From an uncultured Pelagibacteraceae bacterium (GTDB lineage: Bacteria > Pseudomonadota > Alphaproteobacteria > Pelagibacterales > Pelagibacteraceae), in contig CACJRJ010000011.1 in assembly GCA_902595725.1 (NCBI GenBank), positions 1 to 43,394 on the forward strand: a stretch of DNA of 43,394 nt. Reading direction: 5' to 3'. Within the stretch, counting starts at the first letter, position 1, and every line of letters starts with the position of its first letter. Shown here in pieces: positions 18,334 to 21,596 of this stretch. Both the position numbers and the translations under genes were made by a program. A model generated the notes under the pieces. It searched no databases, was not told the origin of the DNA, and worked only from the letters and a program-made list of their open reading frames with translations.

Positions 18334-18352
18334 TGCTGGCTGCACGCTAGCA
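18334..18352 (+). terminator. GC-rich short hairpin before tRNA-His
   Basis: TGCTGGC (18334-18340) pairs with GCTAGCA (18346-18352; one G-U) around the loop TGCAC. This is one of the few GC-rich spots in an AT-rich spacer and is followed by ATTTAATC, a poor U-tract. It may end transcripts coming from the cold-shock gene, or be part of a small RNA; the sequence cannot decide. Confidence 0.35.
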
Positions 18353-18377: not shown

Positions 18378-18386
18378 TTATCCACA
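18378..18386 (+). promoter_or_regulatory. Perfect DnaA-box sequence upstream of tRNA-His
   Basis: TTATCCACA matches the consensus DnaA box exactly. It sits just ahead of a possible -10 element TATAAA (18392-18397), about 13 nt before the tRNA start. If it is used, DnaA could affect transcription of the tRNA-His/hisS/hisZ/hisG unit. Chance occurrence is possible. Confidence 0.35.
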
Positions 18387-18409: not shown

Positions 18410-18484
18410 GCTGACGTCGTATAACAGTTATTACTCCCGCCTGTGGAGCGGGCTATCTGGGTGCGATTCCCAGCGTCAGTACCA
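18410..18484 (+). tRNA. tRNA-His (anticodon GTG), without G-1
   Basis: Hand-folded: acceptor GCTGACG/CGTCAGT (first pair G-U), a weak D-stem of 3 bp (GTA/TAC), anticodon stem CCCGC/GCGGG with loop CTGTGGA (anticodon 18443-18445), variable CTAT, T-stem CTGGG/CCCAG, loop TGCGATT. The discriminator is A (18481) and CCA is encoded (18482-18484). The base before the acceptor is A (18409), so the usual encoded G-1 is missing. The D-loop has AG (18426-18427) where GG is expected and the T-loop has G at position 55. It lies 5 nt before the hisS ATG. Confidence 0.93.
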
Positions 18485-18489
18485 AAAAA

Positions 18490-19881
18490 ATGGAAAAAGA
18501 ACAAAAATTAATACCTGATTTACCTTCTGGGTTTGAAGATAGATGGAATAAAAAATTAGCTATCAAAAAAAAGTTAATCAAATCTATTGAAGCTAACTTT
18601 TTGAAATATGGTTTTGTACCATTAGAAACTCCATCTTTTGAAAAAAGTATAAATATTGGATCATTTTTGGCAGATGATGAGGCCAATCCTATGTCTGATG
18701 TTTTTTCTTTTAAAGATGACAAAGAACAAATAACATTGAGGTATGATTTGAGTAGCCCTTTAAGCAGATTTGTTGCACAAAATTATAGGGATTTAGCTTT
18801 TCCATTTAAGAGATATGCAATTGGAAACGTTTGGAGAAATGAAAAAAGTGGGAATGCAAGGTATAGAGAATTTACCCAAGCAGACGTCGATATAATTGGT
18901 AATACAAATAAAGCTCAATCAGACTCAGAAATTTGTAATGTAATAATCAGCACACTTTTTAATTGTGGGCTTAAAAAAGATCAATTTAATGTTTCTATAA
19001 GCAATAGAAAAATAGTTCAAGGATTGATTAAGGAACTTAAAATCACTAATCAAGATCAAGAGCTTAAAGTAATTAGGGCTATAGATAAATTAGAAAGAGT
19101 GGGAATAAAAGGCGTTGAGGACTTATTAAAAAAAGAGAGAGTAGACATATCAGGTGCGGTTACGAAGGGTGCAAATTTATCAAATGATCAAGCATCAGAA
19201 ATTTTAAATTTTATAAAAATAAAAAATATTCAAGATTTAAAGAAAGTATTGAAAAATCCAATTTCCGTAGAGGGTATAAGAGAAACGGAAGAGCTTTTAG
19301 AAATAGCTAGTCTTGGAAATTTTTCTAATCAAATTAATACAAATTTTACAATAGTAAGAGGACTTGCTTACTATGATGGTTTTTGTGTTGAAACAAACTT
19401 AAATTTTAAGGCAAAGAACTCAAAAGGAAAAGAAATAGACATTGGAAGTATTGCTTCAGGAGGAAGATATGACAAGTTAATTTCAAGGTTTAAAGGAGCA
19501 GATTTTCCAGGAACTGGAATGAGTATTGGAGTTGATAGATTATTATTTGTAATAAACCAAATTAATGAAATTAAAGTCAAAAGTAATGAACCAATATTAA
19601 TCTGCATATTAGAAGAAAAGCTTATAAAAAATTATTATTCAATTTTAAATATCTTAAGAGACAATGGAATAAATTCAGAATTATACCTCGATTCCTCAAA
19701 AAATTTAAAAAAACAATTAACTTACGCGGATAAAAGAGGCTGTCCTATCGCAATTATAATGGGAGAAAATGAAATTAAAGAAAATAAAATTACTTTAAAA
19801 AAATTAACTTCTTCGAAAGATAATGATCAAATAACTGTTTCCAAAGAAAATTTAATCAATGAAATCAAAAAACTTATCTGA
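18490..19881 (+). CDS. hisS: Histidyl-tRNA synthetase
   Basis: A class II synthetase charging tRNA-His. At 463 residues it is of normal length. Motif 1 lies near KYGFVPLETPSFEK (about 38-51), motif 2 is YAIGNVWRNEKSGNARYREFTQ (read in part, about 113-134), and motif 3 is in GTGMSIGVDRLLF. The His-binding signature VRGLAYYDGF differs from the common RGLDYY by Asp to Ala. Residues 372-463 form the anticodon-binding domain. The ATG lies 5 nt after the CCA end of tRNA-His, so there is no ordinary Shine-Dalgarno site. Its 3' end overlaps hisZ by 23 nt. Confidence 0.95.
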   Translation: MEKEQKLIPDLPSGFEDRWNKKLAIKKKLIKSIEANFLKYGFVPLETPSFEKSINIGSFLADDEANPMSDVFSFKDDKEQITLRYDLSSPLSRFVAQNYRDLAFPFKRYAIGNVWRNEKSGNARYREFTQADVDIIGNTNKAQSDSEICNVIISTLFNCGLKKDQFNVSISNRKIVQGLIKELKITNQDQELKVIRAIDKLERVGIKGVEDLLKKERVDISGAVTKGANLSNDQASEILNFIKIKNIQDLKKVLKNPISVEGIRETEELLEIASLGNFSNQINTNFTIVRGLAYYDGFCVETNLNFKAKNSKGKEIDIGSIASGGRYDKLISRFKGADFPGTGMSIGVDRLLFVINQINEIKVKSNEPILICILEEKLIKNYYSILNILRDNGINSELYLDSSKNLKKQLTYADKRGCPIAIIMGENEIKENKITLKKLTSSKDNDQITVSKENLINEIKKLI

Positions 19882-20914
19882 AAAAATCCTTAGATTGATA
19901 AAGTCTAAAGGGTTTAATAATATTGAATTAGACCCAGTATTAGAAACAAAATATATTTTACAAAGATCGGGAGAGAATTTTAAAAGATTATTGTTTTCAT
20001 TTTACGATCTAAATGGAAAGGAGTTATGCCTCAGGCCAGATCTAACAATTTCTTCTGTCTTAAGATTTGTTCAAAATAAATCAAACAAAAAACAAAAGGT
20101 TTTTTATAGTGGAGAAGCTTTTAGAAAAACTTATAGGAAACAAGATTCTATAATTAAAAACCAAATTGGCTTTGAAATATTAGGCTCAAAAGATAAACAA
20201 AAAGAAGATCAAGAAATTATAGATACTTCAATAAAAATTTTAAAAAGTAGTGGTTTTAAAAAAGGAGTTTTAAAAATTGGAAATGTTGAACTATTTAATC
20301 TCCTAATTAACAAACTTGATATTCCAAGAAGATGGAAAAATAGATTAAAAAGATATTATTGGAATGAAAGTTATTTCAATGAACTTTTAAAAAGATTAGA
20401 AACAAATCTAGATATAGATCCTGTTTTTGTTGAAATTGATAAATCAAGATATTTAAAAATGAGAAAACTTGAAAATTCGAAAGAAGTTGTAGGAAGAAGT
20501 TATAAAGAAATATTAGATCGATTTGATATGAAGATAAATGACCCAAGAAGATCTTCATCAGGAAAAATTAATACAAAAATTATTAAAGAATTTTTAAAAA
20601 TAAAATGTGAATTAAAAAATGCGCCTAAAGTTTTGAATAAATTTTTTCAAAAATATAGGCTTAACATATTTGTTGGTAAAGAATTTTTTCCACTTAATAA
20701 AATAAACAACAAGGATTTAAGAGTAGAATTTTCAGCATTAAGTGGAAGAGATGTAGAATTTTATAGTTCAATGATTTTTTCAATAGAAGTGAAAAAAGGA
20801 AAGAAATTTAAAAATTTTATCTCAGGTGGAAGATATGACGAATTAACAAGTAATTTAGGTTTCAGAAAAGTTTCAGCAGCCGGAGCCGCAGTTAATATGA
20901 GCGTTTATGAATAA
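19859..20914 (+). CDS. hisZ: ATP phosphoribosyltransferase regulatory subunit
   Basis: A synthetase-like protein that lost aminoacylation and works as the regulatory partner of the short HisG in the first step of histidine synthesis. The 351 residues resemble only the catalytic core of HisRS: LCLRPDLTISSVLRFV (about 59-74), YSGEAFRKTYRKQDS, QIGFEILGS and the late ISGGRYDELTSNLG; the anticodon domain is absent. It is placed between hisS (23-nt overlap) and hisG (8-nt overlap), so the synthetase, its paralogue and the HisG enzyme are made together. Confidence 0.93.
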   Translation: MKSKNLSEKILRLIKSKGFNNIELDPVLETKYILQRSGENFKRLLFSFYDLNGKELCLRPDLTISSVLRFVQNKSNKKQKVFYSGEAFRKTYRKQDSIIKNQIGFEILGSKDKQKEDQEIIDTSIKILKSSGFKKGVLKIGNVELFNLLINKLDIPRRWKNRLKRYYWNESYFNELLKRLETNLDIDPVFVEIDKSRYLKMRKLENSKEVVGRSYKEILDRFDMKINDPRRSSSGKINTKIIKEFLKIKCELKNAPKVLNKFFQKYRLNIFVGKEFFPLNKINNKDLRVEFSALSGRDVEFYSSMIFSIEVKKGKKFKNFISGGRYDELTSNLGFRKVSAAGAAVNMSVYE

Positions 20915-21596
20915 GAATACTATAAATATAGGTATACCATCCAAGGGCAGATTGAAGAATGATACTTTAAATATTTTTAAGACAAAAAAGTTAAGAATTT
21001 ACTCTGAAAGAGGAGAAAGAGATTTATTCGGCTATATAAAAAAATCTAATGTAAAAATTATCTATCTTCATGCAAGAGAATGTATTGAACAATTATCTTT
21101 AGGAAATATTGATGTTGGTTTTTCTGGCGTAGACTTACTAAAGGAAAGTGAAATAAATATTCAAAATAAAATTAAAGTTATAAAAAAGTATGAATTTGGT
21201 AAAGCAAACCTTGTTCTTGCCATACCTGATCTTTGGATAGATGTACAAACCTTACTAGATTTAGATGAGGTTGCAGATGAATTTAAAAAAAAGAAAAAAA
21301 AACTTATAAGAGTTGCAACAAAATATCCTAATTTAACAAGGGAATTTTTGTACTCAAAAGGTGTAACCCAATTTCAACTTGTTAAAAGTTTAGGAAGCAC
21401 AGAAGTAGCACCATTTACGGGTACTGCAGAAATTATATCTGATATAACTAGTACCGGAGCAACATTAAAAGCTAATAATTTAAGGATATTGAAAGACGGA
21501 GAGATCTTGAAATCACAAGCTTCTATGATGGTTTCCAAATTAAGTGTCAATAAAAAGGGAATCAGAAAACTTTTAAAATTACTTTCGAAAAATTAA
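20907..21596 (+). CDS. hisG: ATP phosphoribosyltransferase, short form
   Basis: Joins ATP and PRPP, the committed step of histidine synthesis. At 229 residues it is the short type that needs HisZ. Motifs: IGIPSKGRLKNDTL at the start, DVGFSGVDLL (about 71-80), RVATKYPNLTREF (about 132-144) and the PRPP loop EVAPFTGTAEIISDITSTG (about 169-187). The C-terminal regulatory domain of long HisG proteins is missing, consistent with the adjacent hisZ. It is followed 2 nt later by a nuclease-like gene. Confidence 0.96.
   Translation: MNKNTINIGIPSKGRLKNDTLNIFKTKKLRIYSERGERDLFGYIKKSNVKIIYLHARECIEQLSLGNIDVGFSGVDLLKESEINIQNKIKVIKKYEFGKANLVLAIPDLWIDVQTLLDLDEVADEFKKKKKKLIRVATKYPNLTREFLYSKGVTQFQLVKSLGSTEVAPFTGTAEIISDITSTGATLKANNLRILKDGEILKSQASMMVSKLSVNKKGIRKLLKLLSKN

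Follow-up and report, generated by a model that had tools for sequence, protein, structure and literature searches.

We found that in the Pelagibacteraceae (SAR11) the gene for tRNA-His lies directly upstream of hisS, the gene for its own synthetase, usually with only a few A residues between the tRNA and the hisS start codon. tRNA-His occupied this position in 162/162 Pelagibacteraceae loci with readable upstream DNA, whereas in other alphaproteobacterial families it was found within 1.5 kb of hisS in 0/28 loci, so the adjacency exceeds chance. The junction is probably, though by no means certainly, a streamlined tRNA-mRNA unit, in which excision of tRNA-His would leave a near-leaderless, A-rich hisS mRNA and no dedicated regulatory switch would operate. 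The literature searched, which did not extend to the most relevant older papers, contained nothing pertinent on bacterial tRNA-hisS junctions or on leaderless mRNAs made by tRNA excision. The conserved arrangement is undescribed there; an earlier mention is conceivable.

The locus was examined in a window of 43,394 nucleotides (the whole stretch of DNA analysed), which comes from a Pelagibacteraceae (SAR11) genome assembly of 1.08 Mb with 84% completeness. The original prediction had placed tRNA-His, five A residues and the hisS ATG in a row, with hisZ and hisG overlapping behind. ARAGORN, Rfam, the open reading frames and the protein profiles all confirmed this layout (Table 1). The encoded CCA of the tRNA is at 18482-18484. 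The frame opened at 18490 encodes a true histidyl-tRNA synthetase (HisRS), scoring 340.6 bits in TIGR00442 against a cut-off of 286.75. hisS and hisZ overlap by 23 nt and hisZ and hisG by 8 nt, which bears out the predicted linkage of tRNA-His and hisS to hisZ-hisG. On the 5' side of tRNA-His are hisD, infA, tRNA-Phe and a cold-shock gene. The small hairpin that follows them is possibly the end of the upstream transcript; in a terminator scan it did not score as a terminator.

Table 1. Features of the tRNA-His/hisS locus, in positions of the window
Feature	Position	Strand	Description	Basis
Small hairpin, GCTGGC-TGCAC-GCTAGC	18335..18351	+	downstream of the cold-shock gene, before the tRNA promoter	sequence inspection
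-10-like box, TATAAA	18392..18397	+	presumed promoter of tRNA-His-hisS-hisZ-hisG	conservation
tRNA-His(GTG)	18410..18484	+	G1.U72, A73, no G-1	ARAGORN; Rfam RF00005, 53.5 bits; structure parse
AAAAA linker	18485..18489	+	presumed cleavage region and entire hisS leader	sequence; family census
hisS, ATG at 18490	18490..19881	+	histidyl-tRNA synthetase	TIGR00442, E 1.3e-101; PF13393
hisZ	19859..20914	+	regulatory subunit of ATP phosphoribosyltransferase	top match NF008953, E 5.8e-83, under the curated cut-off
hisG	20907..21596	+	ATP phosphoribosyltransferase	TIGR00070, 178.8 bits, cut-off 75.75

The predicted start of hisS stands. No other ATG, GTG or TTG is in frame upstream of 18490, the alignment of HisRS from relatives begins at residue 1, and no conserved later start codon was found. 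With linkers of 3, 4, 5, 6 and 7 nt, each of the three possible frames occurs between the tRNA and hisS, so a hisS start within the tRNA is not conserved. An earlier or later start was ruled out by the alignment from residue 1 and by linker lengths that are not multiples of three, and no room was found for a separate, longer hisS leader.

The hisS neighbourhoods of relatives were drawn from two partly overlapping collections. One family locus was left out (L163, at a contig end that starts inside the tRNA), and the remaining failures were sister-family genomes. In the sister family, tRNA-His adjoins tRNA-Phe and is separated from the downstream hisS by about 1.4 kb in the five genomes where ARAGORN detects tRNA-His; the stretch between tRNA-His and hisS, read in one case and recognised by eye only, resembles a transporter gene on the opposite strand. 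The comparison of spacing among related genomes that the original prediction had proposed gave linkers of 3-7 nt for 142/151 different HisRS, with 4 nt in 101 of these 142 and pure A in 124 of them. The short linker persists although the tRNA bodies are highly diverse and have been exchanged independently of hisS. Eight of the 151 relatives (L144, L146, L148, L149, L150, L157, L158 and L159) have linkers of 23-47 nt; a small hairpin is present in most of these, and its loop sometimes contains GGAG. CCA is encoded in 150/151 tRNA-His genes, counted once per different HisRS. The tRNA-His of L152 (genome G177) has no encoded CCA (GTGTACGCCCAAAATG) and would therefore need CCA addition after cleavage.

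It is likely, judging from sequence, that tRNA-His is transcribed together with hisS, hisZ and hisG as a single unit. A [TG]ATAA box stands before tRNA-His, nearly always at 10-16 nt, in 117/121 distinct upstream sequences compared with 31% of shuffles; as these 121 sequences are related, the conservation is support rather than proof. This -10-like box fits the predicted single transcript from tRNA-His through hisS. A scan with the sigma-70 consensus gave no plus-strand site at tRNA-His, and shuffles yielded just as many sites, so the promoter is assigned by conservation alone. A promoter would not fit into the five bases between tRNA-His and hisS; one within the tRNA gene is conceivable. Just 5' of the -10-like box, positions 18378-18386 read TTATCCACA, an exact DnaA-box-like 9-mer. 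TCCACA is present in 51 of the 121 distinct upstream sequences and the exact 9-mer in 8.

Starting from the observed anatomy, conservation, single tRNA-His, rarity of Shine-Dalgarno (SD) motifs and enzyme inventory, we propose the following course of expression. A promoter just 5' of tRNA-His would give a single tRNA-His-hisS-hisZ-hisG transcript. An endonuclease, probably RNase E, would then cut in or beside the A4-A5 linker; survival of the hisS mRNA through tRNA excision needs a cut at this place. The products would be pre-tRNA-His and a hisS mRNA whose leader measures some 5 nt at most. This mRNA would be translated from its A-rich start region without SD pairing, as for most genes here. 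The tightness would be an outcome of genome streamlining that recurs at other tRNA-CDS junctions, and the cognate partnership would be a family-wide fixed arrangement carrying a divergent tRNA-His/HisRS pair without G-1. We infer co-transcription, the cleavage site, near-leaderless translation and the absence of a dedicated regulatory circuit. RNase E/G was above the cut-off in 9/9 genomes tested and RNase Z in 0/9, with no canonical RNase Z among them; the protein that matched RNase Z weakly has a beta-lactamase fold, and its gene adjoins a TatD-like gene. Folded as a single sequence, the junction was no better than shuffles (z -1.13). A nearly leaderless hisS mRNA after cutting of the tRNA, as originally suggested, fits the 5 nt junction, and the accompanying idea of competition between tRNA maturation and hisS translation is putative and sterically plausible.

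Tight spacing and a missing SD motif are not peculiar to hisS. In the source genome, the distance from the tRNA 3' end to the ATG of an ORF is 2 nt for tRNA-Pro, 7 nt for tRNA-Leu(caa), 9 nt for tRNA-Leu(tag) and 6 nt for tRNA-Glu. In genome G003 (a single contig, 99% complete), it is 3 nt for tRNA-Gln, 4 nt for both tRNA-Leu(taa) and tRNA-Leu(caa), 2 nt for tRNA-Glu, 6 nt for tRNA-Pro, 10 nt for tRNA-Leu(tag) and 11 nt for tRNA-Thr. Each genome thus has 5-8 tRNA genes that end 2-11 nt before an ATG. Only 7/44 window genes, by simple ORF calling, have an SD-like motif. The absence of SD space noted in the original prediction is therefore true of the junction but does not distinguish it, and the short gap cannot serve as a mark of special regulation. 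Short tRNA-to-ATG gaps are a general feature of SAR11 and a missing SD motif is normal in this window; as evidence of special regulation both were rejected.

hisS still stands out in two respects: the tRNA before it is cognate, and its linker is so often pure A. The non-cognate pair tRNA-Leu(tag)/tig is adjacent, at 4-21 nt, in 47/47 loci whose gap was measurable, sister-family loci among them. Its linker is pure A in 1/47, compared with 124/142 at hisS, hinting at a locus-specific constraint on the sequence of the hisS linker. A tRNA would stand beside its own synthetase by chance about once in 200 (a rough post hoc estimate from some 7 tight pairs and about 1,300 genes), so the pairing may have a function. 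At L216, in G003, the tRNA-Gln is followed after 3 nt by the ATG of a gene that, on visual inspection alone, appears to encode a poly(A) polymerase or a tRNA nucleotidyltransferase.

The tRNA linked to hisS is the working tRNA-His. The tRNA matches of G003 contained no other GTG anticodon; that genome therefore has a single tRNA-His, the one beside hisS, and the idea of a tRNA-like decoy, with another tRNA-His encoded at a different site, was rejected. The incomplete source genome also has a single tRNA-His among 24 tRNA genes. By structure parse, G1.U72 is present in 162/162 family tRNA-His and A73 in 161/162. Base -1 is T, A, G and C in 88, 41, 28 and 5 loci, respectively, with no fixed G-1; in the window, A at -1 is combined with A73. 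The tRNA-binding loop of motif 2 in the window HisRS reads WRNEKSGNARYREF, with Gly replacing Gln, and Gly was present in 139/139 pattern-matched sequences, a further 12 being unmatched by the pattern. By these sequence traits, SAR11 has the divergent alphaproteobacterial (RRCH type) tRNA-His/HisRS pair without G-1. This divergent pair of the RRCH clade was reportedly described by Wang in 2007 and by Ardell and Andersson in 2006, and it has A73, the lack of a templated G-1 and Gly in the motif 2 loop in common with SAR11. According to the accessible part of Amrine 2014 (PMC3937112), divergent tRNA-His/HisRS traits have already been reported in SAR11; that part makes no mention of the tight tRNA-hisS junction.

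The divergent type of the pair also invites a historical explanation, which we regard as unlikely: the tRNA and HisRS, sharing a private identity code, would have moved together by recombination or gene transfer, and the junction itself would have no function. Co-transfer into SAR11 was discussed by Wang 2007, according to PMC3937112. Moreover, some genomes of the same genus have HisRS only 46-54% identical to that of the window, compared with 62-70% for trigger factor, suggesting that hisS was replaced in place. However, the HisRS tree required about 32 changes of tRNA type (the minimum being 9 and the mean of shuffles 94; it is a FastTree tree with many weak branches, so that the count is rough), and tRNA and HisRS would thus often have been separated. 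Judged by this tree, the tRNA types cluster yet swap often while the junction persists. Strict co-inheritance of tRNA type and HisRS was rejected by the same count. One identity code is common to all copies, so linkage is unneeded for compatibility.

The original prediction further held that HisRS could bind the tRNA in its own mRNA and control itself. HisRS or the folded tRNA on the uncut transcript would block both the start codon and 3' processing, and the synthetase level would track the amount of free tRNA-His or enzyme available. A true HisRS substrate does sit 5 nt from the AUG, the pairing is cognate in every family locus, and the linker is short and uniform. Beyond this layout, the proposal found no support: non-cognate pairs such as tRNA-Leu/tig are equally tight and conserved, eight relatives have long linkers, and the tRNA body and HisRS reassort. 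We therefore think it improbable, at perhaps a slight chance, that HisRS senses free tRNA-His in cis and, bound to the uncut transcript, blocks 3' maturation and the start codon. If it did, a real tRNA gene would double as an operator, and one junction would set tRNA-His, HisRS and, via the hisZ-hisG overlap, histidine synthesis. A T-box leader was rejected, since the Rfam scan of the whole window at gathering scores gave only three tRNAs and there is no room between tRNA-His and hisS.

It is more doubtful still that ribosomes use the unfolded 3' half of the tRNA as the hisS leader, with tRNA matured from only a fraction of the transcripts; SD pairing is not required here and the minimum-energy fold of the junction falls short of a full cloverleaf, but only about 9 nt would separate a stable acceptor stem from the AUG, which puts the end of the stem within the usual 30S footprint, and tRNA-His is a sole, essential copy, so its processing must be efficient.

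The proposed streamlined unit resembles several known systems. One is the tRNA punctuation that Ojala, Montoya and Attardi reportedly described in 1981 for the transcripts of animal mitochondria. There too, a tRNA abuts the start codon (here by 5 nt in the window and 3-7 nt in 142/151), its excision would yield a near-leaderless mRNA, and the genome is A+T-rich and minimal. However, SAR11 has a bacterial genome with its own promoters and a short A linker, and cleavage here is predicted. Nor do tRNAs punctuate most SAR11 transcripts, as the 5-8 tight tRNA-CDS junctions per genome involve a minority of genes. In the tRNA-mRNA operon thrU-tyrU-glyT-thrT-tufB of E. coli, tRNA and protein genes are likewise probably co-transcribed and tRNA processing frees the mRNA, but a long spacer holds a normal leader, whereas in SAR11 some 5 nt separate the tRNA from the gene of its cognate synthetase. 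The gene order of pylT-pylS, a tRNA gene directly 5' of its own synthetase gene with a private identity code, is the same; the amino acid and enzyme are unrelated, and the SAR11 pair is the only His pair, and an essential one, in a free-living cell. E. coli thrS is autoregulated via a tRNA-like leader and also has a tRNA-shaped RNA beside a synthetase start codon, but the SAR11 RNA is a real tRNA gene, the only one for His in G003, rather than a mimic, and synthetase binding in cis is hypothetical.

SAR11 bacteria rank among the most numerous cells on Earth, and their genomes have very short spacers. The junction offers a clean natural case for translation start on near-leaderless mRNAs from tRNA excision, and it also suits asking whether the rate of tRNA processing sets the synthetase level. 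Natural variants, namely A linkers of 3-7 nt, mostly hairpin-containing linkers of 23-47 nt and one tRNA without CCA, are ready-made test constructs.

The tRNA-His bodies themselves have unusual elbows. Among 34 distinct bodies, G18 always occurs with U55 (20 bodies) and A18 always with G55 (13 bodies, including that of the window); in L159 both states are lost. T54-A58 is swapped to A54-T58 in seven bodies, with T-loops such as AGCGTAA. Elbow variants were seen in the window (18410-18484), in L035, L052, L059, L151 and L159, and in others. ARAGORN overlooks tRNA-His with the T-loop AGCGTAA or GGCAGAA at about 40 loci (L035-L054 and L069-L133). Absence of tRNA-His from these relatives was rejected because the gene is present, and automatic annotation may list such genomes as having no tRNA-His. 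An unusual elbow is carried by the sole tRNA-His of the complete genome G003, and the A18/G55 state is also found in many tRNA-Phe and in tRNA-Val(GAC). The covarying A18-G55 elbows may be more novel than the junction.
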